From positions 1-54,331 of the IMG/VR virus record IMGVR_UViG_3300032048_000004: a DNA stretch of 54,331 bases; one strand, 5' to 3'. This DNA comes from a virus. Of this stretch, positions 35,558 to 53,084 are shown piece by piece. Below the pieces are notes generated by a model, which worked only from the letters and a program-made list of their open reading frames with translations, was not told the origin of the DNA and did no database searches. How positions within the stretch are numbered: the first letter of the stretch is position 1; every line of letters starts with the position of its first letter. The position numbers were made by a program, and so were the translations under genes.

Positions 35558-35591
35558 AAAACCCCGCCTTAGTAAAACTAAGACAGGGTTT
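35558..35591 (-). terminator. Rho-independent terminator after the major capsid gene
   Basis: A 14-bp stem (with two G-T pairs) and a 5-base loop: AAACCCTGTCTTAG / CTAAGGCGGGGTTT on the minus strand, followed by TTCTTGT. It lies 34 bases after the capsid stop and separates the head and neck operons. Confidence 0.88.
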
Positions 35592-35624
35592 CTTTGAATT
35601 ATTATAAGTTAGCTTATGCTATTC

Positions 35625-37409
35625 TTACATATCCCGTACAATAACAACTGCGTACATATCTGAACGCACCATCTTCTTACCGTAACGAGTCATCACGCCC
35701 TTTCGGGGGGTCAGATCCGCAGGATCAAAGATAGTTGGAGTTGTTTGCAGAGGCACATAAGGTGCATACACATACCCGCTTTCTAAAAAGCTTGAACCTT
35801 TTCGGCCCACAAGAATTGCATTCCGTGGGAAGTAGGGGTCAACATAGACATCCCACTTCTTATTCAATGCACCTTCCTTAACTGCACCAACGGTTCCTCG
35901 GTCAGCATCATGAGTGACGCTTGCTCGGAATCCAGAGGTAAACTCAAGGATGTTAGCCGTTTCGGGTCCGCAAACCAAGAAGTTTGCGCCACCACGAAGG
36001 GTCTTGCGGTGAATGTCAGCAGACGCATCGTTGACAGTTTCAACGAGAGTCTCATACCACTCACTTACATTACCAGTGAAGTCCATATCAGTAAGGCTTC
36101 CATCCGCTCCGGCTTTTTGGCCAGAAAGTTTTGACCAGTACCTAGTGCTTGCAGCACCTTGAAGAAGGTCGGTGAGGATTTCTTTGTCAATCTCAAGAGC
36201 AATTTGCTCCGAGAGGACAGAGGTAAGCTCAACTTCTGCATCAAGGTTGTGATAAGCATTAAGGTCTTGTCCCAATTCTGGGGTCCAGTGTGCTTTCAGC
36301 TTTTTGGTCTGTGCCGTGATAGCTACGCTATCAACTTTGATATCAATCTCTGGGATATCCGCAGATTCCATCGCCCAAGCAGCAGAGCCAACGACTCCGC
36401 CTGTTCCTACACTGGCAAATCCATCGCCAAGAACCCAAGAAATATCTTTAGCAGCGGTGATGGCTGTACCTGCAACGGCGCTGGCAGCGTTGGCGATAGC
36501 CAAGTCAGTACCAACTTCAGTAGGTTCAGTAAACGTAGTTGCGGTAAAGACAAATCTTACTTCATCAACAACACCATCGGCGGTGTAAGTTGCAGTAGTC
36601 AGTCGTCGGACCATCGATGGCGTTCCCGTACCTGATGGCGCTTCAAGCACAGATGCAATCTCTGCACCTTTTTGCATCCGAGCGGCTTTGCCGCCTGTAG
36701 TCGCAGTATATGAAGCTTCAACTTCTGCATTAACCAGTTTAAGAACAACAACCTGTGTACCAGTACCAGTAGCAGCGGGCAAATCAGCCAGAAGATCTGG
36801 ATCATGCTGAATGGCTGCCAATTGTGCGGCAGTTAAATCAGTAGAGTTAAGTGCAAAGGTTGGAACCGCAACTTGCAACGATGTAGCACCTTTACATTCG
36901 GCAGAAGCACGATTGTTGGAATATCCAGTACCAAGGTTATAAAAACCAGTATCTGGATCTGTGGTTAAATCCACTCCAGCGGCAATTTCACTTGCGACGG
37001 CTCCGCCACCATGTACTGAATTAGTAGAGTTTGGCGCTCCTGGGGTCGATGCCGCAGCATCGCCTAGATTTCTTGTAAAGTCCAAGAAGAAGATAAGTCC
37101 AGATGGCAAGCTCATAGGCTGCACCGAAACTATATCATTTGCAAGAAGTCCGCCGAATACTCGTCGGACGATGGGGAAGGCAACAGCAGCGAAACCGCTT
37201 ACATCTTGACCAGCACCCATGCTGCTTTCCTCACGAAGTAGTTCCTTCGCTTGGTTTTCGAGAAGACAGGCCATTGACTGCTTCTTTTGATCACTTTCTA
37301 GTCCTTCTAAAAGACCAGTGTTTGACCACTTGTTTAAGAGGGCTTCACCCTCTTTGGCGACATTGCGTGACACAATGCCTTCAGTTAGTTTTTGTAAAAC
37401 ATTTGACAT
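35625..37409 (-). CDS. gp23: Major capsid protein (gp23-like)
   Basis: 594 residues (T4 gp23 521). Seen: AAVAFPIVRRVFGGLLANDIVSVQPMSLPSGLIFFLDFTRN, then LKAHWTPELGQDLNAYHNLDAEVELTSVLSEQIALEIDKEILTDLL, and the C-terminal MTRYGKKMVRSDMYAVVIVRD, all characteristic of the gp23 HK97 fold. A variable Ala/Thr-rich insertion lies about 200-310. An LRE site at residues 58-60 matches the (I/L)xE target of T4-type prohead protease and gives a propeptide nearly the same length as in T4 (65). The gp21-type protease gene is in the same operon. Confidence 0.96.
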   Translation of the reverse strand: MSNVLQKLTEGIVSRNVAKEGEALLNKWSNTGLLEGLESDQKKQSMACLLENQAKELLREESSMGAGQDVSGFAAVAFPIVRRVFGGLLANDIVSVQPMSLPSGLIFFLDFTRNLGDAAASTPGAPNSTNSVHGGGAVASEIAAGVDLTTDPDTGFYNLGTGYSNNRASAECKGATSLQVAVPTFALNSTDLTAAQLAAIQHDPDLLADLPAATGTGTQVVVLKLVNAEVEASYTATTGGKAARMQKGAEIASVLEAPSGTGTPSMVRRLTTATYTADGVVDEVRFVFTATTFTEPTEVGTDLAIANAASAVAGTAITAAKDISWVLGDGFASVGTGGVVGSAAWAMESADIPEIDIKVDSVAITAQTKKLKAHWTPELGQDLNAYHNLDAEVELTSVLSEQIALEIDKEILTDLLQGAASTRYWSKLSGQKAGADGSLTDMDFTGNVSEWYETLVETVNDASADIHRKTLRGGANFLVCGPETANILEFTSGFRASVTHDADRGTVGAVKEGALNKKWDVYVDPYFPRNAILVGRKGSSFLESGYVYAPYVPLQTTPTIFDPADLTPRKGVMTRYGKKMVRSDMYAVVIVRDM

Positions 37410-37436: not shown

Positions 37437-38582
37437 TTATTTAATCCCAGCTAGGTGCTTCCAACGATTCATCTCGTTGTTTGCCTCTGCTGGCTTTTCA
37501 CGCCTTGGCATAAAAGCTGGGGATCGTTTTGAAATTGCTTCGCTCAGTGATTTCGGGTTCCGCTTGGTGCGAGAACTCTCCACTGCGCTTTGAAGGGTTT
37601 CATAAATAACCTTTGCTTCTTCAACCGTATTGGCATTAGAAATAGCTTCGGCAATCTTTTCGATTTGCCGCTCATTCAAGGAGCCACTATTTAAAATCTT
37701 ATTCGTATATACTAATTTTGCATTTGAGAGGTTGGTTTTCTCAACCTCTTCTTTGAGATGGTTAATGACTTTAATGTATTTTGATTGATCATTAGTCATT
37801 TTATCAACACTCTCTTTTAATTCTTCAATGGTTTTCTTAAGTGCATCAGCTTCTTCTGCTCGCTCATCATCTCGTTGAGATGCGAGAATAGCGTCACGCT
37901 CTGCTTCCATTTCTGCATTGTTGGTGATTCCACGACCACCGATCGTTCCATTTGGTTGAGGATCATAATCAACAGTGAGTGCTTCCTCAACAGTTTCTTC
38001 TTCTTCCTCTTCGATAACCTCTTCAGCGTCTGGCTCTTCAGAAATTACTTCTTCTTCAGAATCTTCTTCTGAGAGAACTTCATCAATCAAGTCTCCAATG
38101 ATTGATTCAACTTCACCAAGATTATATTCTTCTTCTTCGTCCTCTTTGACCTCTGCAAAGATTTCTTCTTCGTCTTCAGGGGCGCCAAGTGATTGCAGAT
38201 CATCAAGTGATCCAACAGTGTCGTCTTCCATCGCTTCTTCTTCTGCGTCAACAGCAGCAGCGAGTTGATCAAAGTCAATCACAATCTCTTCTTCGTCTTC
38301 TGGACAAGGGCAAAGATTCTCACCATCTGAGACAGCGGTTGGTGCCTCGATGGAATCAGCGGCTGCGGCAGCAGGATCTGCGTCCATTCCCACGTCCATT
38401 CCAAGATCCATTCCAAGATCCTCTTCGGCCTCGGTGATTTCTTCTTCCTGCTCCAGCAGTGAATCGACTGCATCTCGAATACTATCTGCGTATTTCTCGA
38501 TCAGTGCTGATTCAGCGTTTTTAATTGCTGCTTCCTTAAGTGCTTTTGCATCTACTATAGCTTGCTCTAACATTGTTGACAT
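37437..38582 (-). CDS. gp22: Prohead core scaffolding protein (gp22-like)
   Basis: 381 residues (T4 gp22 269). The N-terminus is a helical Ala/Lys/Glu segment. Residues about 45-210 are extremely acidic with long Glu/Asp runs, and the C-terminal half is coiled-coil-like (ALKKTIEELKESVDKMTND, VINHLKEEVEKTNLSNAKLVYTNKIL), ending MNRWKHLAGIK. This composition and the position directly before the major capsid gene are those of the T4 scaffold, which is cut up and removed during maturation. Only the helical C-terminal half is recognisably gp22-like. Confidence 0.8.
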   Translation of the reverse strand: MSTMLEQAIVDAKALKEAAIKNAESALIEKYADSIRDAVDSLLEQEEEITEAEEDLGMDLGMDVGMDADPAAAAADSIEAPTAVSDGENLCPCPEDEEEIVIDFDQLAAAVDAEEEAMEDDTVGSLDDLQSLGAPEDEEEIFAEVKEDEEEEYNLGEVESIIGDLIDEVLSEEDSEEEVISEEPDAEEVIEEEEEETVEEALTVDYDPQPNGTIGGRGITNNAEMEAERDAILASQRDDERAEEADALKKTIEELKESVDKMTNDQSKYIKVINHLKEEVEKTNLSNAKLVYTNKILNSGSLNERQIEKIAEAISNANTVEEAKVIYETLQSAVESSRTKRNPKSLSEAISKRSPAFMPRREKPAEANNEMNRWKHLAGIK

Positions 38583-38686: not shown

Positions 38687-39727
38687 TTACTCTAATCCGT
38701 TCAACGCCATGATTGCAATCAATCCTGGCAACGATTCTCTAATATACACACCCGAAAAGAGTGTCTCTGTTCGTCCACCGACATAAGAGATAGCTGCATC
38801 CAAGTGCTTGCCGACCTCTGGGTCGTCTGCCATCTCTGGGGTTATAATCAACAGCATAACACCCGTTTTGGGGCGTCCAACTGGATCTGGACAGGGTGAT
38901 CGCTTCAAACAGTTGTGAAAGATCTCTGCGCCCATGTTTGCAGAAGCTTCCTTCACCATTGTTGAACCAACGAACATCCTTTTATTCGTTTTTAGGCATC
39001 TTTCAAGATCTTTCGAGTCAAAAGACTGAATTGGTGACTTTTCTCCGGCCAATTTAAGAATCTGAAGGAATAGTTTTCCAAATGTCTTGTTGGCTGTCGG
39101 GAACATGCCAAGCATACCGACTTTTCCCCTCAAAAGCTGAACTTGCTTCTCATTATCGAGGATAACGTGAGGTTTGTCTTTCAAATCCTTGGCAAGTGCT
39201 GCTGAGTTTTCTTTAATTGTTGGGTTTAGTTTTTCTTGGGCGGTTGGTTGGGTGATGACATAAAGAACTTTGCCTTCTGCCGACACTGACGCCAAATATC
39301 GCTCAAATACGGGATCAAGAGCGGCTGTTGATGAACCAGTTCCGCCTCCGCCACCTGCACAGACGACGAGCCAGTCAACCTTTCCGAACTTTGTTCGCAA
39401 AGCGTCTTCGACGACGACTCCGTTCTCTCTAAAGACCTTCTTGCCGATGGCTGTATCCTTTGCGGCACCATCTGATCCTGGAACGTGGACGAAGTGTTCT
39501 TCGGGGACGCCCATGGGTTGGTCTTTTTCCGTTGTATTGATTAAAAGGGTCTTGTTGAATCCCAAATCAAGGAATGACTTGGCAATTTTACCACCACCAC
39601 CTCCAACACCGACGATACCGATGTTAATTGCGGCACCTGCTTCGTTGTCAGGCAGTTGGTCTTCATTCTTTACTTCTTCTGATTCGCCATACTGCTCAAT
39701 AAAATCAAAGTCTTCAAAATCGCTCAT
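38687..39727 (-). CDS. FtsZ/tubulin-like GTPase in the capsid gene cluster
   Basis: 346 residues, near FtsZ core length. An acidic N-terminal tail (first 35 residues) precedes INIGIVGVGGGGGKIAKSF (first nucleotide loop). The tubulin signature is intact: CAGGGGGTGSSTA near 123-135, followed by a helix and VLYVITQPTAQEK. Further on, SPIQSFDSKDLERCLKTNKRMFVGS aligns with the FtsZ T7 loop and following helix (INVDFADV...MMGSG): the D-x-x-D acids needed for polymer-coupled GTP hydrolysis are present. The C-terminal domain ends without an FtsZ-type membrane or FtsA peptide. It is transcribed between the bS21-like gene and the scaffold, so late expression is likely. Polymerisation and cargo are inference. 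Confidence 0.88.
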   Translation of the reverse strand: MSDFEDFDFIEQYGESEEVKNEDQLPDNEAGAAINIGIVGVGGGGGKIAKSFLDLGFNKTLLINTTEKDQPMGVPEEHFVHVPGSDGAAKDTAIGKKVFRENGVVVEDALRTKFGKVDWLVVCAGGGGGTGSSTAALDPVFERYLASVSAEGKVLYVITQPTAQEKLNPTIKENSAALAKDLKDKPHVILDNEKQVQLLRGKVGMLGMFPTANKTFGKLFLQILKLAGEKSPIQSFDSKDLERCLKTNKRMFVGSTMVKEASANMGAEIFHNCLKRSPCPDPVGRPKTGVMLLIITPEMADDPEVGKHLDAAISYVGGRTETLFSGVYIRESLPGLIAIMALNGLE

Positions 39728-40004: not shown

Positions 40005-40433
40005 TTATTGTCTACCTTTCTTATCAGTTCCTGCTAACTGTTTCCAAGCGGCTGTTCTTCCGCCAGTGAAGTTTGAAATATCAACACCAGCATCTCTTGG
40101 ATCTCGTCCAGAAAGTGGGCTTTGGCCATTGCTTTCTGCGGGTGCTGGGGTTGTGCCTTCGAAGATATCAACTCCGCCATAAGCATCACTTCCGATTGAG
40201 TCAAGCAATGCTTTTCTCTTTCTCTTTGATTCCTCTAGGGCTTGTTGGTGTCTTTCTTCCTCTTGCCTCTCTTGTTCCTCTGAAACAATTTGGGCAGTTG
40301 GAGCAGCGGTTGATAAACCGTTTGCAACTTCTGATACAATACTTGATATGATGCCATTCTCTTCCAATATGACTTCACGGATGCACTCTCGGATGAGAGG
40401 CTTTAAGATTTTCTTTAGTTCTGATTTTTTCAT
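40005..40433 (-). CDS. Small charged protein of the prohead region, unknown
   Basis: 142 residues. A helical, Lys/Glu-rich N-terminus (MKKSELKKILKPLIRECIREVILEENG) is followed by an EEQERQEEERHQQALEESKRKRK helix and a disordered Gly/Pro/Asp tail ending WKQLAGTDKKGRQ. The ending resembles the W-K-x-L-A-G ending of the scaffold protein encoded nearby. It overlaps the protease stop by four bases (ATGA). A minor prohead core component (as gp67/gp68 in T4) is a guess from position and composition. Confidence 0.6.
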   Translation of the reverse strand: MKKSELKKILKPLIRECIREVILEENGIISSIVSEVANGLSTAAPTAQIVSEEQERQEEERHQQALEESKRKRKALLDSIGSDAYGGVDIFEGTTPAPAESNGQSPLSGRDPRDAGVDISNFTGGRTAAWKQLAGTDKKGRQ

Positions 40434-41038
40434 TCTTCGCTCACAATTGAATTTAAAATACGGTTAATTCTATCTGCTTTTGTAAACATCTTCTTTTCCA
40501 TGCTCTCATTGACACTCATATATGCCTCTGGTGTTGATGGCTCTGAAACAAAGTCGAAGCAGATTAGTTGGAAGTCGTCTTCGACAACCGTTGCTCCGTT
40601 GTTATCTTCATGAACCGATCCCAAACCTCGTGATGAGATTCCAAGCTTGACGCCAGATTCAACAAGTGATTTAAGGATTTGTCCTGAAGGGGTGTTGAGG
40701 ACTTTAACTTTGCCCATAACATTTTTTCCATCCCACCATACGGAAGTTACCATATGGGATGCGTTTCTGAGGTTTACAACTGAATCTTCTGGGTGATCTA
40801 ATTCTCCCAGTGCTCTGCGTTCATTAATGATCTTGGTATAGTTTTTCATTTCTCTCTCCAAAACCTTGTGAGGGTAGACCCTTCCATTTCCATTGAGTTT
40901 GTCAGCGCATTGCATAATGCCAGTTAAGTACAGAGTGCCGTTGGCGACTTCTTGCTTCTCATGTTCAGTGAGCAGATCTTGGCAAACACCGCCTTCACAC
41001 AGTTCATAATATTCTCTTAAGAGAACTTTTTTAGACAT
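40430..41038 (-). CDS. gp21: Prohead core protease (gp21-like)
   Basis: 202 residues (T4 gp21 212). Seen: GTLYLTGIMQCADKLNGNGRVYPHKVLEREM, ALGELDHPEDSVVNLRNASHMV (catalytic His region, near 80-95), and SGVKLGISSRGLGSV (catalytic Ser region, near 128-140), then LICFDFVSEPSTPEAYM, all typical of the T4 prohead serine protease (S77-type). It cuts scaffold and capsid proteins at (I/L)xE sites during head maturation. The mRNA leader holds two strong hairpins (41058-41126). Overlaps the downstream gene by four bases. Confidence 0.95.
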   Translation of the reverse strand: MSKKVLLREYYELCEGGVCQDLLTEHEKQEVANGTLYLTGIMQCADKLNGNGRVYPHKVLEREMKNYTKIINERRALGELDHPEDSVVNLRNASHMVTSVWWDGKNVMGKVKVLNTPSGQILKSLVESGVKLGISSRGLGSVHEDNNGATVVEDDFQLICFDFVSEPSTPEAYMSVNESMEKKMFTKADRINRILNSIVSEE

Positions 41039-42068: not shown

Positions 42069-42907
42069 TAGGAGTTGACCTCCCGAACCAAATCTTGAAT
42101 CTTAAGGATTTTTCGAATTTGTTCTTCATCGACCACCTCTTGAGCAAACGACTCAAGCATTTCAACAACCTTGTCTGTGCTCTGGATCATGTTATCGTCA
42201 GAGTTGATTTCTTCAGCTTCCTTGGAGGCTGAAACTTCCTCTTTTAATCTTCCGATTTCTTCATTAAGATAGGTTTTCAATTCAAGTCCGTTGTCAACAA
42301 AAGATAGAATATATTTACTCAAGAGGTCTTTTTGTTCTTCGTGCAGTTCATCGCTATAAGATTCATTAAACTTGTTGGTAAAGGTCTTATAGGTCAGGTT
42401 GCTAATGTGGTGCATCTGATCAGGTCGCTCATTGTCTTTGATCATGTTACAGATAATTTTGTTTTCGAGGAGGACACGATCCTTCATCCTAATTCCGTCG
42501 CTAAATATTTGTGATAGTGTTGCGAGGTTTTTATAGTTGGGAACAAAGTTCGCATAGGTTGAATCACCGACTTCCTTATTGATATCATCAACAAGTGCAG
42601 ACTGGGCTGAGAAGATATCATCATTAGACAGGGTGGAATACATCCTCTTTGCCTCCAATAATATTCTTTCAGCAGTGATTCTATCTGTATCTCTAGCTTC
42701 ATTAACAGATCTATAAAGATCTAATTCTTGAAACAATATACCACTCTTTTTGAAATGCTTTTTAAGAACTTTTGAGATAGCAACTCTCTGATCAGTATCG
42801 CTGGCGATGGATGCTTTTGTTAGCTCCTTCACCAGTGCTTCAAACAAGAAGGCGGTGTTCCGCTTCTTATTGTGTTTGAGCTTTTTACTCTTTTTCTGAT
42901 TGGCCAT
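42068..42907 (-). CDS. Unknown helical protein following the portal gene
   Basis: About 279 residues from the ATG of MANQKKSKKLKHNKK, preferred over an upstream in-frame start because it limits the overlap with the portal gene to 23 bases and follows GGAG. After a strongly basic N-terminus comes TAFLFEALVKELTKASI and a mainly helical, acidic body with heptad-like stretches (LKTYLNEEIGRLKEEVSASKEAEEINSDD). No known family. Position suggests a prohead core or connector-associated protein, but this is only inference. Confidence 0.65.
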   Translation of the reverse strand: MANQKKSKKLKHNKKRNTAFLFEALVKELTKASIASDTDQRVAISKVLKKHFKKSGILFQELDLYRSVNEARDTDRITAERILLEAKRMYSTLSNDDIFSAQSALVDDINKEVGDSTYANFVPNYKNLATLSQIFSDGIRMKDRVLLENKIICNMIKDNERPDQMHHISNLTYKTFTNKFNESYSDELHEEQKDLLSKYILSFVDNGLELKTYLNEEIGRLKEEVSASKEAEEINSDDNMIQSTDKVVEMLESFAQEVVDEEQIRKILKIQDLVREVNS

Positions 42908-44822
42908 CGTCTTTTTTCTCCAAGTTTTGAATGAGGTTTTTAATATCTGCCGATACCTCAAAGAGTTTCTTTTCCTCTTTATCATAATTAGTATTAATTT
43001 TAGATTCGGCAATATTAAGACCCGTTAAGCCCATAATATCCTGTGCACCTTTAAAGGTGTTTCTGGTGGTAGAGCTTGCAGTCTCAGCAGACCACTGAGC
43101 TTTGTTGTGCTTTCGTCTTCCACCTGCTGCTCTTTGATCTCCACCACGTTGTGAAACGCCGCCGATATTCTTTGGAACATATTTCTTGCCCTTAGATTTT
43201 GGTGTGGTTGTCTCAATATTTCTATTTGCTGGTGCTGCGAGGAGCGGGCTGTCACCGCCTTCGCCTTCGTCACCAAGATCTAAGTCTCCGCCGAGATCTT
43301 CATCGCCGCCGAGATCCATGTCTCCGCCAAGGTCGTCACCGAAGTCACCACCGAGATCTCCTCCACCTTCGCCGCCTTCGGCTGCTCCCTCAAGTTGCTG
43401 GTCAAGCCAAGCATCGTAGAACATTTCTCTCTGATTTTGGATAACTTCTTCATCAGACATTCCAAAGAAGTTCTTGGAAATCCATCGTCGGCTGAAGAAC
43501 TTCTCAGTTGCTCCACTGGCAACATCAAATTTAGTTTTCCAATGCTCAAGTTCTTGAAGCTCTGCAATCTTTGAAGGATTATTCAGAAATAATTTAAAAT
43601 TAATCAAATCTTCGTTTCTATACCCAAGCGTATAAAGATGGACAATACCAATCTTCTCAAGTTCGGAAACAATCGCTCGCTGGAGCCTCTGGATGGTTCG
43701 TGCAAAGCGAATGTCCTTCTGTGCGAGGGTTGCCTTGTCTTCATCTGCACCTTCTGCTCGTGATAGGTAGGACGCTGGGACTTTAAGCGCAGAGAAGAGT
43801 TTATCTCTGAGATATTTAACATCGTCAATATCACCAGTATATTGACCACCTGCGAGGGTTTCAATTCTGGTTGAACCAGAACCACCACGGACAGGAATAA
43901 AATAATCCTCATCAATACTCATTGGATTGTATCTCAAGTCAACACGACCAGTGGTTGGATCGACAACTTGGTTTCGCTTCAGTTGAGTCTTGGCCTTCTC
44001 CATGAATTGCTCAACATCTTGTGGTGCGATCGTTCCAACGTCAAAGTAAAATACTCGGCGCTCTGGTGAACGAACAATACGATACGCCATCATAGCGTCT
44101 TCGAGAAGGGTGAGTTGGCGCCAGATTCTTCGAGCAGGTTCAACAACTGCCGTTCCATATGGGGCAAATTTATCATTGCCAAGGATTCGGAAGTGTGCGA
44201 TTTGCCAATTCTCAAAAGTCATTCCACCAGAGTTCCACTGGTATTGGACATAATTTGCATTAGTTTGGTCTTGACCTTCCATTCTTTCGACCTCAATCGA
44301 GGGTAGACCAATGGCACTGCGGATTCCATGATGGTCGTCGATCTCAAGATATAAAAAGAAATCACCATACTTGCACATAGTTCTCGCCCAACCAAAAAGA
44401 TTGTGATCTACATTGAGGATGTTGTGATAGAGTGCGCTTAGGATATCTTTAATTTCTTGGTTATGGCAGTCAATTGTCATGAGCGGGGTGAGTTTTGTCG
44501 AGGTTGTAATCTCATCTGCATAAATATCCAAAGCAGATGCAATCTCTGGTGTGTACTCCATTTGATCGAAATCCTGATAACGAAGAGTTCTATCTTGCTG
44601 CATAAGTGCATGGGAGTTGAGAGCATCAAAGGGGTTGTAAGCAGTCTTTTTAAAGTTAAGACCTTGTGCTGACTTGAAGTCTCCAGCATACTTATCAAGC
44701 TGTCGTCGTCGGAACCGTCGCTGTGTTTGCGCTCTATAATTAATAATAGGACCAGAAAATAGTCTGGTTAGTTGTCGAAACAATAATGAATCTTGATTTC
44801 TTGGATTTTTGTTATCTGCCAT
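42885..44822 (-). CDS. gp20: Portal vertex protein (gp20-like)
   Basis: 645 residues (T4 gp20 524). Seen: YTPEIASALDIYADEITT, DHNLFGWARTMCKYGDFFLYLE, WQIAHFRILGNDKFAPYGTAVVEPARRIWRQLTLLEDAMMAYRIVRSPERRVFYFDVG, and LKVPASYLSRAEGADEDKATLAQKDIRFARTIQRLQRAIVSELEKIG, all typical of T4-type portals. An acidic Gly/Asp repeat tract (about 485-535, units like GGDxDLGGD) and a basic tail follow the core, extra to T4. The portal is the DNA gate at one head vertex. It begins three bases after the terminase stop. Confidence 0.95.
   Translation of the reverse strand: MADNKNPRNQDSLLFRQLTRLFSGPIINYRAQTQRRFRRRQLDKYAGDFKSAQGLNFKKTAYNPFDALNSHALMQQDRTLRYQDFDQMEYTPEIASALDIYADEITTSTKLTPLMTIDCHNQEIKDILSALYHNILNVDHNLFGWARTMCKYGDFFLYLEIDDHHGIRSAIGLPSIEVERMEGQDQTNANYVQYQWNSGGMTFENWQIAHFRILGNDKFAPYGTAVVEPARRIWRQLTLLEDAMMAYRIVRSPERRVFYFDVGTIAPQDVEQFMEKAKTQLKRNQVVDPTTGRVDLRYNPMSIDEDYFIPVRGGSGSTRIETLAGGQYTGDIDDVKYLRDKLFSALKVPASYLSRAEGADEDKATLAQKDIRFARTIQRLQRAIVSELEKIGIVHLYTLGYRNEDLINFKLFLNNPSKIAELQELEHWKTKFDVASGATEKFFSRRWISKNFFGMSDEEVIQNQREMFYDAWLDQQLEGAAEGGEGGGDLGGDFGDDLGGDMDLGGDEDLGGDLDLGDEGEGGDSPLLAAPANRNIETTTPKSKGKKYVPKNIGGVSQRGGDQRAAGGRRKHNKAQWSAETASSTTRNTFKGAQDIMGLTGLNIAESKINTNYDKEEKKLFEVSADIKNLIQNLEKKDDGQSEKE
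43257..43385 (-). repeat. In-frame GGD/DLGGD repeat tract in the portal gene
   Basis: On the plus strand a run of closely similar units (such as CCGCCGAGATCT, CCGCCAAGGTC) encodes repeated Gly-Gly-Asp and Asp-Leu-Gly-Gly-Asp in the portal C-terminal region. The DNA-level similarity suggests growth by slippage or unequal exchange. Confidence 0.6.
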
Positions 44823-44825
44823 TTG

Positions 44826-46403
44826 TTATCCCTTACTGACCCATAAAAATGGTTCTAGTTCTTTTATTTGTGCTGCGTACTCTCTCGCCTTGTCGTAACC
44901 AGTTTGGCCTTTTATTTTTGTATCCAGAGTTGTATCGCTTCTGCTAATGCCATTAAGCAAAGCTTCGCTATATTCTGCATCTCTCTTGTTCGCAACCAGC
45001 GCAGTATCACGAACCCAACATCCAATTGCCATTGCCATGGTAAGGTCGTCGTTATAACCTCTCATCGCTTCCGGTCTTCCATTATTCCAAACGAAAGTTT
45101 TCAGTTCACCAGCGAACCTATTTGACATTACTGTAATTAGGTCATTCCTGACGAATTCCTCCAATTTTGCGATAATTAATGGTCTTGTTTTCATAGAAGT
45201 TGTGAATCCAGGTACAACACCTGCTCTGGAACTAACATCATATCCCTCGACATACTCGTTGGTTGACTTGATTGAGTGATATACGTTGGGATATTCCATG
45301 TCCAACAGCTTTGTGAGAACTGAATATCCAATGTTATTATTCTCCACAATGATCATGCAATCACCATAGGATTTCCCTGCGTCGAAGAGCATTGTTGCAA
45401 ACGTATTCAAGTCTGGCTTACCTTGATATTCTGCGACCTGTCTCATATTCGTAACATCGATTATATGATAGACAGAATAGTCTCGTCCGTCGCCTCGTGC
45501 AACGTCTGCCGTGATCAGGTATGAACTCTCTGGTTTAAAGTTTTCCCAAATATATAAGTTTCTATCGAATCCTGCTCGGTGTTCTGGTGGTGTCACGGTA
45601 TTGAAGATCCTTTCAAGATCCTCTCCTGAAATGACTGTTTCACCAGACATGTTAAAGTTACACTCAAGCTCTTGTGCGATCTCACGCCTTGACATGTTTC
45701 TGGTTTCTTTTTCAAACCACGCCATGTCTCTCTCTGGGTGTTGATCCCAAGTGAGTCGAGTTGTTACAAAGTCATTTTGCTCTTCTTCAGCCTCAGTATA
45801 GATTTTGTGAAACCAGTTACCAACACCATTGGGTGTGGAGAGTGCAATGCAATTACCGCCAGTAGAGAGCGTAGGGTATAGGCCCATCCACAGTTCATTC
45901 AACCCTTCAATGTGTGCGGCCTCATCGAGAACGAGCAGTGACAGTGCCTCAGAACGGCCAGCATCGCCGCTGGTTGAAGATGCTTTGATAATGGAGCCAT
46001 TTGAAAGCTCAAAGGATGTTCTGTTGTCTGTGGAGATTCTTGCGATCATCAACCAGTCTGGCAGGTTCTTTAAGATCTGCTTTACTTTTTTGACAAGGTT
46101 GGTTGCGGTGGAAAACTTGGTGGCCATGACAAGAACATTCTTGTCTCTGTGAAAAAGCATGAGCCATACGACATACCCAGCAGTAACAGTTGAAATACCC
46201 AACTGTCTTGCTTTTAAAATAATATTAAATCTTGAATCCTGAAATGACTGGAGGAGGTCATCTTGGAATGGGAAGGTCTTGAAGGGGATCAATCCCTTTT
46301 GTGGGTGGGAAATCTTTGTATAGGTATTTATGAAGTATACCGGATCACGTCCGCACTTCACAATCTCCTTGACAACTTCCTTTTTAGATAATTGGTATGA
46401 CAT
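44826..46403 (-). CDS. gp17: Terminase large subunit (gp17-like)
   Basis: 525 residues (T4 gp17 610). ATPase: adenine-binding FPFQDDLLQSF, Walker A KARQLGIST near 63-71, Walker B LLVLDEAAHIEG near 155, and coupling motif ALSTPNGVGNWFHKIY. Nuclease (RNase H fold): YLITADVARGDGRDYSVYHIIDV (first Asp), MIIVENNNIGYSVLTKL, and a C-terminal GYNDDLTMAMAIGCWV (last Asp pair). It pumps DNA through the portal and cuts headful lengths. Followed by the portal gene after three bases. Confidence 0.96.
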   Translation of the reverse strand: MSYQLSKKEVVKEIVKCGRDPVYFINTYTKISHPQKGLIPFKTFPFQDDLLQSFQDSRFNIILKARQLGISTVTAGYVVWLMLFHRDKNVLVMATKFSTATNLVKKVKQILKNLPDWLMIARISTDNRTSFELSNGSIIKASSTSGDAGRSEALSLLVLDEAAHIEGLNELWMGLYPTLSTGGNCIALSTPNGVGNWFHKIYTEAEEEQNDFVTTRLTWDQHPERDMAWFEKETRNMSRREIAQELECNFNMSGETVISGEDLERIFNTVTPPEHRAGFDRNLYIWENFKPESSYLITADVARGDGRDYSVYHIIDVTNMRQVAEYQGKPDLNTFATMLFDAGKSYGDCMIIVENNNIGYSVLTKLLDMEYPNVYHSIKSTNEYVEGYDVSSRAGVVPGFTTSMKTRPLIIAKLEEFVRNDLITVMSNRFAGELKTFVWNNGRPEAMRGYNDDLTMAMAIGCWVRDTALVANKRDAEYSEALLNGISRSDTTLDTKIKGQTGYDKAREYAAQIKELEPFLWVSKG

Positions 46404-49931: not shown

Positions 49932-52900
49932 TTAGTGATTAACAAACGCAAACCCATTCTTCTTTTCAATTGAAATTTGCGAGTCTACAGAGTCCTTCAG
50001 TGCCTCTTGGTGAGATATGAGAAGGACTGTTTTGAAGTGTGTTTTAACGAGATCGAGGATTCTAACGAACCCTTCCATGTTCTCTTCATCCAATGCTGTT
50101 CCTGGCTCATCCAAGATGAATATGTCGCCTTTCGGCATGGAAGACACGCTCAAGAGTGCTAAACGAATTGCCATGGCAGCAATGGTTTTTTCCGCTCCTG
50201 AACCCATTTCCAATGGTCTTGCACTAAACTTGGGATGTTTAATAAATATCTCAAGCCTCTTGTCAATATCTTCGACATACACTTCAAAGTCAACGATGTT
50301 GGCAAGGGTTGATGCAATTTCAGCATTAATAATTGGTAATCTATTTTTGATAATATCCAGAGAAATTCCATTTGTGTGGACGCATCGCATAAACAAATCG
50401 TAGGCTGCGTACTCTTCTCTGGCTTCTGATAATTCTTCTTTCTGCTCGCTCAAACTCTCAAGTTGTTGAGTCAGCGAGCCGCTCTCCTTATATAACTCCG
50501 TGAGTCTATTTTCGCATTTAATGAGCTTATCTTCGGATTCTCTCACCTTGACAGTCTTCTTTTTTCTATCGGCAATAAGGTGTTCCAAGTTCTCAATTGC
50601 GTCACGATTCTCTTCATACTCAGCAATTTTGTCAGAAAGATTTCGAATCTCAGAGTCAATGTTTAAGACTTTGGTTTTGTTTTTCGCAATTTGTAGCTCA
50701 ATCTTGCCAATTTTTGTTTCCGTCGATGCTCGCTTCTCAATGACCTGACGGTGCTTCTCAATGTACTGGGCAATGACATCTGGCTGGAGATTGAGAATTT
50801 CCTTACCAACTTCTTTCTCTCTGTCTTTTGCCTCGTCAAGATCTTTTTTCGTGATTCCGATACTTTCAAGCGCAGTAAAAGCATCCTTGATGAATTTACA
50901 TTGCGGGAAGCTTTCTCCACACGGAACTTCGTTGAGGAGTTGGATCTTCTTCTCTTCTACTTCTCGGACGGTTTCTTTTTCTCTGATAAGTCTAAGTACC
51001 CCATCGAGGGCATCTTTTTTCTGTCGCACCATCTCTTGCTTATCATTCCACTCGTCAATATTAAATTCACTACAGAGGCTGTCAATCTTTGCAACAATAT
51101 CCCTATTTTCATCAGATTCCTCTTTTAACTTTTTATTTTTATTTTCTAGGCTGTGAGAGTTTCTTTTCTGCTCTTCCAACAATTTGGTGACTTCTTTAAT
51201 ATTAATGATAACCGCTGGGATGGCATCAATTGAAGATTGAAGTTCGATAAGATTAGCCTTGCTGGTTGCAATGTCGCCTCTTAATATGCTGCAAGTGTCT
51301 TTCTGCTCGCTCACTTCTTTGTTGTGTGAAATGAGTTGTGTTTGTATAACCTCTGACTCTGTGTCGAAATCGATCACTTCAAGCCTCTTCAGGATTGCCT
51401 TAAGATCAGAAGCGTCATCCTTTGCAAGTTTGAACTTTTTATCGAAAATCTCAAGGTCAAGGAACTTCGCAAGGATCTCTTTCCTCTTCGTCGAACCCTC
51501 ACCAATGAAGTCCAGAGAGCCTAATTGAGAGGCCATTGAGGTCAAAAGGAAGTCATCCATCGTACCAAAGTATTTTCTGATATTCTTGTCTGTTCCGTTA
51601 CGATCAAGGCCATTAAGAGGCTCTTTCCTGTTGGTCACTGGATTGTACGTTGAGAAGGTTACGTTAGTTTTTGCTTCGTCTGTTTCTTCTCCTCGGAGTT
51701 TTTTAGTATATTTCTCACAGTCACGTTCAATGATCAGTGTGGTGTCTCCAACCTCAATTTCGGCCCTTCCTTTGGCCCAATCAGCCTTTTCATTGATACT
51801 GTTCAGATTCTTCCGATTGCCCTTTGAGGTCGAATTATAGACGGTGAACAACAGACTATCGATGATACTTGACTTTCCAGAAAAGTTTTTTCCAAAGATG
51901 CCAACGATGCCATTCATGTTCTCGAAATCAATTTTATTCTTCTCTCCGTAGTTGAACAGGTTATCCCATTCAAGAGACTTCAAGCTCCAACGAACATTTC
52001 TTTTTACGTCCTCGCCAGCTTCGACGACTGTATTGTATTGTTTATTCAAAGCACAGACACGATCGAACATTACGTCGGTTACTTCATAATCTTCCAAGAA
52101 TTGCTTGAAGAACTTTTCCTGCACTGCAATGTTCCGCAAGTCCTCTTGTATGAGTTCTCCTTCGATCTCGACACTACGACGTGCTCCTGAAGCTCGATTG
52201 AGAAATGTTACAGAGGTTGGCTTGAACTTTGATTTTGCAGTGTCCAATGCCCTTCTGAGCTTGTGAATCGGAAGGCTGTGGTTTGTTGCAACACGAAGTC
52301 TTGCGCCCTCTGGAACAACTGCGTTCTTGGGAATACGACCTTGCTTGGTCAATTCGATTGTAACGAACGGACGTGGGTTTTCAAGGACATGATGCTCAAC
52401 AGTGAACTCATCTTTACTTTTAATATCCCAAACGAGATAGCCCTTGTCATTTGTCTCGCCATGGTTTTGTTGAACGGTGGAACCTGGATAACGGACACGA
52501 CCCTCAGTATCAAGAATCTGATTCGTTTTGTGAATATCCCCAAGAAAGGCATAATCAAAGTCCTCAAACACTGCAATATCATGATCGCCGTGTTCCATTA
52601 TCCAGCCAGTGTCTGTTACGACACCACCTACCGCTCCATGGTATAGAGCAATATTTATTTTATCCGCATTTGATGGCTGGACCCAATTGTCTTCATCGAA
52701 CACACTCAACACATTAATGGTGAAATCTTTGTCCAACACAGTCTCGCCAGCGGATTTGAGCAAGTGAAGGTTGGGAAGATTGAGTGCCTCAATAATTGGG
52801 GTCAACGCATCTTGGCGACTTTCGTTCTTAAGGTTTCCGTCATGATTGCCCAATATAATATAGGTGGGGGCGATACTCGATAATTCCTTAAAAAAGTTAG

Positions 52901-53084
52901 CTGCCATATCAACAAACTCAGGTGAAATCTGAGTCTTGGTATGTGCGATATCTCCACAGTGAATAATATAATCCACGTTTTGTTCTCGCAACATATTATA
53001 CATCTTTTCGAATACAGTTCTGTACTCGGAATGATATTTTAAATTTCGTATGTGGGTATCTGCAATATGTGCAAATCGTGCCAT
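49932..53084 (-). CDS. SbcD-SbcC (Mre11-Rad50, gp47-gp46) fusion protein
   Basis: 1050 residues in one continuous frame. Residues 1 to about 340 are an SbcD/gp47-type nuclease: ADTHIRN (D-x-H), HCGDIAHT, LGNHDGN, LYHGAVGG and FLGDIHKT. Residues about 370-1050 are SbcC/gp46: Walker A FGKNFSGKSS near 400, a long coiled coil split by a hook region with two Cys (VPCGESFPQCKF, near 718, C-x6-C rather than CxxC), signature EMGSGAEKTIAAMAIRLAL, Walker B FILDEPGTALDEEN near 990 and LLISHQE. In T4 these are two separate genes. It would resect DNA ends for recombination-dependent replication and may degrade host DNA. Confidence 0.93.
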   Translation of the reverse strand: MARFAHIADTHIRNLKYHSEYRTVFEKMYNMLREQNVDYIIHCGDIAHTKTQISPEFVDMAANFFKELSSIAPTYIILGNHDGNLKNESRQDALTPIIEALNLPNLHLLKSAGETVLDKDFTINVLSVFDEDNWVQPSNADKINIALYHGAVGGVVTDTGWIMEHGDHDIAVFEDFDYAFLGDIHKTNQILDTEGRVRYPGSTVQQNHGETNDKGYLVWDIKSKDEFTVEHHVLENPRPFVTIELTKQGRIPKNAVVPEGARLRVATNHSLPIHKLRRALDTAKSKFKPTSVTFLNRASGARRSVEIEGELIQEDLRNIAVQEKFFKQFLEDYEVTDVMFDRVCALNKQYNTVVEAGEDVKRNVRWSLKSLEWDNLFNYGEKNKIDFENMNGIVGIFGKNFSGKSSIIDSLLFTVYNSTSKGNRKNLNSINEKADWAKGRAEIEVGDTTLIIERDCEKYTKKLRGEETDEAKTNVTFSTYNPVTNRKEPLNGLDRNGTDKNIRKYFGTMDDFLLTSMASQLGSLDFIGEGSTKRKEILAKFLDLEIFDKKFKLAKDDASDLKAILKRLEVIDFDTESEVIQTQLISHNKEVSEQKDTCSILRGDIATSKANLIELQSSIDAIPAVIINIKEVTKLLEEQKRNSHSLENKNKKLKEESDENRDIVAKIDSLCSEFNIDEWNDKQEMVRQKKDALDGVLRLIREKETVREVEEKKIQLLNEVPCGESFPQCKFIKDAFTALESIGITKKDLDEAKDREKEVGKEILNLQPDVIAQYIEKHRQVIEKRASTETKIGKIELQIAKNKTKVLNIDSEIRNLSDKIAEYEENRDAIENLEHLIADRKKKTVKVRESEDKLIKCENRLTELYKESGSLTQQLESLSEQKEELSEAREEYAAYDLFMRCVHTNGISLDIIKNRLPIINAEIASTLANIVDFEVYVEDIDKRLEIFIKHPKFSARPLEMGSGAEKTIAAMAIRLALLSVSSMPKGDIFILDEPGTALDEENMEGFVRILDLVKTHFKTVLLISHQEALKDSVDSQISIEKKNGFAFVNH

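Follow-up and report, generated by a model that had tools for sequence, protein, structure and literature searches.

A distinct tubulin/FtsZ-superfamily GTPase family in T4-like marine phages without a detectable phage-nucleus gene

The literature ties phage tubulin to nucleus-forming phages of the phiKZ type: the tubulin of marine jumbo phages was reported from the phiKZ-like cluster and no other (PMC9123017), and in a 2025 survey tubulin was found to distinguish the Chimalliviridae, apart from a few scattered exceptions (PMC11835377). The locus studied here raises the question of what kind of tubulin a T4-like marine phage encodes among its head genes, and for what use. The window, that is, the whole stretch of 54,331 bases that was analyzed, is a single IMG/VR virus record (IMGVR_UViG_3300032048_000004) from a marine virus of bacteria, and one of its genes, here named TUB, had initially been annotated as an FtsZ/tubulin-like GTPase, a member of the protein class from which cytoskeletons are built. 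Against that literature stands a coherent TUB family that co-diverges with the capsid gene. The family is widespread and previously uncatalogued, in T4-like viruses without a detectable phage-nucleus gene; we found no description of it in the open-licence literature, the scope of our search. The reading that best explains the whole, with a probability of roughly 0.6, is that TUB represents a distinct phage tubulin family whose probable GTP-dependent filaments organize infection without a phage nucleus.

The initial annotation gave the frame of TUB correctly and did not name its strand, which is the minus strand. It placed the gene between a prohead protease group and the scaffold gene of a T4-like phage; this was confirmed by the matches and positions of the neighbors (Table 1), and the setting is indeed unlike that of known PhuZ or TubZ genes. 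Upstream of TUB, terminase, portal, three small ORFs, protease, a core-position ORF and bS21 follow one another on the same strand, and downstream lie the scaffold-position protein, the gp23-type major capsid protein (MCP) and then a neck protein. Transcription of the head block may terminate at the hairpin 3′ of the MCP gene, a candidate proposed by consensus match only. The T4-type late promoter TATAAATA was considered for TUB and rejected: it matches twice in the window, in neither case upstream of TUB, and this count is not above chance. A late-expressed bS21 in the head block is known from Bacteroidetes phages, and the window bS21 that adjoins TUB resembles those genes (PMC9723584). Elsewhere in the window, the minus-strand ORF at 49932–53084 (1050 aa) has an SbcD-like nuclease match at the N-terminus, and its remainder matches SbcC-like ATPase; this apparent SbcD-SbcC fusion is kept in relatives.

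Table 1. Features of the TUB locus in the window; residue numbers refer to the TUB protein.
Feature	Position	Strand	Observation
TUB, tubulin/FtsZ-superfamily GTPase gene	38687..39727	-	346 aa, ATG start
Ribosomal protein bS21 homologue, 71 aa	39789..40004	-	directly upstream of TUB; PF01165 E 6e-8, over cut-off
Small ORF 3′ of protease, prohead-core position	40005..40433	-	neighbor kept in relatives; no PHROG match at E <= 0.01
Prohead protease, T4 gp21 type	40430..41038	-	phrog_207 E 2e-58
Acidic protein, scaffold position, gp22-like by position	37437..38582	-	between protease group and MCP; no PHROG match
Major capsid protein, T4 gp23 type	35625..37409	-	phrog_138 E 1e-70
Portal, T4 gp20 type	42885..44822	-	phrog_213 E 2e-72
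Terminase large subunit	44826..46403	-	phrog_2 E 3e-53
Hairpin with T-rich tail 3′ of MCP gene	35558..35592	-	16-pair stem, strongest site in scan
T1 loop GVGGGGGK, residues 40-47	39587..39610	-	(nearly) invariant in 59 sequences; aligns with FtsZ T1
T2 loop NTTEKDQP, residues 64-71	39515..39538	-	N64, T66, K68, D69, P71 invariant in 59 sequences
T3 loop DGAAK, residues 86-90	39458..39472	-	D86, G87, K90 invariant in 59 sequences
T4 tubulin signature GGGGGTGS, residues 125-132	39332..39355	-	residues 127-132 invariant in 59 sequences
T7 catalytic loop QSFDSKDLE, residues 234-242	39002..39028	-	D237, D240, L241 invariant in 59 sequences; aligns with FtsZ NVDFADV
Family-specific acidic peptide EDFDFIEQYG, residues 5-14	39686..39715	-	predicted helix inside low-confidence (low pLDDT) acidic leader

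As a single protein, TUB matched the Pfam Tubulin family (PF00091) with E 7e-5 and 23.6 bits, under the gathering score of 33. An alignment of 59 members was built from IMG/VR relatives with identities down to 50%; PF00091 matched 59 of 59 (best E 2e-10), as did the NCBIfam FtsZ model. PDB FtsZ was found at 7e-6 by the single sequence and at 2e-10 by the family profile, which also matched CetZ (3zid, E 4e-9) across nearly the whole protein. An earlier AlphaFold model built on 5 sequences, in which the C-terminal half had a pLDDT of 60, was replaced by a model from the 59-row alignment (pLDDT 91.6, pTM 0.89). The latter shows the tubulin GTPase fold with the C-terminal activation domain, in the element order of FtsZ and with S10 as the last strand. 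Its best PDB matches in Foldseek were FtsZ, TubZ and CetZ (FtsZ 4dxd, E 1.4e-19), and known PhuZ models scored lower (TM about 0.5). Structure prediction and phylogeny had been named beforehand as checks: the predicted fold is that of tubulin, and the tree described below does not put TUB in a non-polymerizing NAD/GTP family. An NAD-binding or ThiF/E1 reading, which has weak glycine-loop matches only, is ruled out by the full tubulin fold. The identification of TUB as a tubulin/FtsZ-superfamily GTPase is thus supported.

When the nucleotide loops of TUB and reference tubulin/FtsZ proteins were compared, the key T1–T6 residues aligned. The GGGGGTGSS and SFDSKDL sequences, described at the outset as an intact signature and a T7-like D-x-x-D, correspond to residues 125–133 and 235–241; they are not chance motifs, and the key residues of the GTP-binding loops together with D237 and D240 are invariant in the 59 sequences. 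In FtsZ and tubulin, T7 works on the nucleotide of the adjacent subunit, so the strict conservation of the DxxD in TUB points to selection for polymer-coupled hydrolysis. In the 11 TUB pairs compared, amino-acid identity was 75–95% and dS was saturated in 10; dN/dS was consequently uncomputable for most pairs, and the persistence of such identity despite saturation indicates strong purifying selection. From sequence conservation, we infer that TUB very probably forms a GTP-dependent polymer. In such a polymer, GTP would sit between the T1–T6 face of a subunit and the T7 loop of its neighbor, subunits would assemble head-to-tail into filaments, and these would hydrolyze GTP and turn over.

To place TUB among known families, a tree was built from 21 TUB, 6 PhuZ and 5 FtsZ sequences together with 4 proteins of plasmids or phage G, with CetZ left out. 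Each group formed one side of a branch, with supports of 100/100 (PhuZ), 96/97 (FtsZ), 94/98 (plasmid/phage-G) and 86/95 (TUB). The tree shows group separation only: long branches connect the groups, and we assert no branching order between them. In profile–profile comparison, TUB was closer to FtsZ (E 2.5e-9, 238 columns) than to PhuZ (E 3.8e-7, 184 columns). FtsZ is the top match by both profile and fold, and TUB keeps its loop order, its catalytic DxxD and its C-terminal order S7-H9-S8-H10-S9-S10. However, TUB reaches 27.8 bits against an NCBIfam equivalog cut-off of 295.2, is about 17–20% identical to FtsZ and forms its own clade. Furthermore, it ends at strand S10 (residue 346) without the C-terminal linker or conserved division peptide, its T1 loop has K for the N of FtsZ, and the position of FtsZ R142 is not conserved. 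Derivation of TUB from the FtsZ of the metagenome-assembled genomes (MAGs) holding family contigs was also considered and is not supported by the tree, in which the TUB clade lies outside those FtsZ.

These comparisons bear on interference with the host FtsZ, which the initial annotation had suggested. In a host takeover of this kind, TUB would cap or co-assemble with host FtsZ, division would stop and the cell would enlarge. FtsZ being the nearest characterized relative by profile speaks for it, as does the fact that TUB adjoins non-structural genes in many of the phages, but FtsZ mimicry is hard to reconcile with such low identity and with a clade outside FtsZ, MAG FtsZ included. In addition, the N-terminal motif of TUB is unlike the flavobacterial FtsZ C-terminal peptide FLHDNVD, and a poison could dispense with an invariant catalytic T7 loop. 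The suggestion was not borne out, and we regard host takeover as unlikely.

TUB resembles PhuZ in being a phage-encoded member of the tubulin superfamily, in length, in its T7 DxxD and in occurring as a single copy per large-myovirus genome. However, it falls outside the PhuZ clade, with a structural TM of only about 0.5 and a weaker profile match than to FtsZ, and the families hit by the 59 TUB members do not include PF22334 (TubZ_C_2), which phiKZ PhuZ matches. TUB has an N-terminal peptide where PhuZ has a C-terminal tail, and its carriers have no detectable chimallin or phiKZ-type RNA polymerase. CetZ, a cellular archaeal family, matches TUB in fold and profile. The best reading is that TUB is neither FtsZ nor PhuZ and constitutes a distinct phage tubulin family. 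One uncultured circular phage contig has likewise been described with an FtsZ homologue and without chimallin or a nuclear shell (PMC7452251); it differs in being one contig, with family and extent not described there, and is set beside TUB by description only.

Likeness to TubZ lies in the fold (TM up to 0.76), and the T3 and T6 loops of the plasmid/phage-G group are similar to those of TUB; among deposited phages, the TUB consensus matched best to Bacillus phage G gp138 (E 0.2), which is annotated as FtsZ-like. These proteins nevertheless group separately from TUB in the tree. A TubZ-like role in DNA partition, by which a plasmid-like phage genome would be kept in dividing cells, would accord with TubZ among the top structural matches and with the shared loops. 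However, the gene-order table shows no constant TUB neighbor across contexts, such as a TubR-like DNA-binding gene, and no partition partner was seen; 72,556 plasmid records contained no TUB relative, and TUB carriers resemble lytic T4-type phages. We consider partition highly improbable, more so than host takeover.

Within IMG/VR, at least 122 distinct contigs of up to 293 kb encode TUB (repeats of the same contig were taken out by eye from the locus list). Five further contigs come from bacterial MAGs that carry the labels Flavobacteriales, Flavobacteriaceae or Halobacteriovorax, which suggests that the hosts are marine Bacteroidota and possibly Bdellovibrionota, unless these contigs are mis-binned. 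No TUB member was found in 50,697 deposited phage records searched with the window protein and the family consensus; by comparison, phiKZ PhuZ found 179 records among deposited phages. In the 16 long carriers (117–293 kb), a gp23-type MCP was present in 15 and one clear TUB copy in all 16, and chimallin and phiKZ RNA polymerase were each detected in 0 of 16, with phiKZ positive in both controls. That no nucleus gene was detectable in these carriers argues against TUB having the exact PhuZ role of centering the phage nucleus. PhuZ filaments also carry capsids (PMC13282480), an activity that could remain for TUB. In the 293-kb carrier (G011; locus L114, MCP loci L195 and L201), two gp23-type capsid genes adjoin each other at 176341–180096.

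The closest cultured capsid relatives are Flavobacterium phage immuto, Microcystis phage Mel-JY01 and Rhodothermus phage RM378, and no TUB match was found in these three. The Mel-JY01 ORF at the TUB slot was tested as a divergent TUB and ruled out as unrelated. This slot (L145:12392–13558), between bS21 and scaffold-position genes, holds a lysine-rich 388-aa protein whose C-terminal half is, by eye, reminiscent of ADP-ribosyltransferases.

The genomic position of TUB was surveyed in 127 contigs (122 viral, 5 MAG) with a simple neighbor rule. It lies in the head/neck module in 44 of them (about a third): in 22, TUB is flanked by MCP or scaffold at one end and by a gp14-type neck gene at the opposite end, 13 show a partial MCP/scaffold–neck arrangement at contig ends, 5 have the window-type position (one, L002, assigned by eye) and 4 have TUB between portal-side genes and protease. 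In the remaining contigs, TUB stands after SbcCD or before terminase (some 17), near PhoH (29) or elsewhere (37), and the TUB–MCP distance in long records ranges from <1 kb to >80 kb. Occurrence in head, SbcCD and PhoH neighborhoods indicates no single expression class. The capsid-operon setting is a trait of some TUB lineages and, since position varies among relatives, late co-expression cannot be assumed family-wide. The late co-expression with capsid genes and capsid role proposed initially are plausible for the clade of the window and do not carry over to the family, of which only about a third sits in the head/neck module.

The same survey weighs on the idea that TUB is a late head-assembly factor, that is, a GTP-binding part of the prohead core or neck that forms no free cytoskeletal filament. 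Its location amid genes for protease, scaffold, MCP and gp14-type neck protein, seen in the window and in roughly one third of the relatives, would fit this role, but most relatives carry TUB elsewhere than in the head block, and in several long records the two lie tens of kb apart. Moreover, heads appear to be assembled without TUB in close MCP relatives, and no conserved gp21-type protease-site motif was seen by eye in its leader. A head factor thus appears quite improbable, ranking between host takeover and partition, and we retain the filament-forming tubulin family as the preferred reading.

A possible attachment site of such filaments is the N-terminal peptide, whose motif DDFDF[VI] occurs in 130 of 144 family ORFs versus 2 of 1828 other ORFs. 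We infer that this peptide is the most likely cargo or membrane adaptor site of TUB: on its flexible leader, acidic DDFDFV/I would attach a partner or cargo, replacing the C-terminal tail of FtsZ and PhuZ. In L020 and L025 the peptide occurs twice in the leader, a doubling that suggests a multivalent binding motif. The filaments would probably place or move intermediates of phage assembly or replicating DNA within cells that form no phage nucleus; that TUB does position or transport phage material is tentative, and we hold it at slightly less than an even chance. Just as tentatively, and with odds a little short of balanced, TUB may form a third major branch among the viral tubulins, in which nucleus-less T4-like marine phages build a GTP-driven cytoskeleton with cargo attached via the N-terminal peptide. 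If so, viral cytoskeletons would be far commoner than the Chimalliviridae and not bound to nucleus formation; if TUB forms filaments, cytoskeletal organization of the cell by phages would not be an adjunct of the phage nucleus.

Finally, TUB and MCP identities were correlated (Mantel r 0.76, 0 of 5000 permutations), which shows co-divergence, and TUB is conserved no less than the capsid protein (mean pairwise identity 63% versus 56%). In the MCP tree, a clade of 13 rows is entirely TUB-positive and its sister of 18 comprises 12 positive and 6 negative rows; overall, six presence/absence changes are needed, counting possibly incomplete records. This pattern, together with the identity correlation, suggests old vertical inheritance with losses, and transfers are also possible; TUB would have been passed down with a large group of marine T4-like myoviruses, some of which lost it. 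No TUB match was found in some of the MCP relatives, whose records span 127–203 kb. If TUB forms filaments, its natural presence or absence in sister phages offers a route to asking what they are for. In G009, TUB (C1:138311–139447) stands after SbcCD and before terminase, its start codon overlapping the SbcCD stop, and in the sister G027 (C1:88136–95392) it is cleanly absent between the same flanking blocks. Its absence from this sister and from MCP relatives indicates that the role of TUB is not essential.
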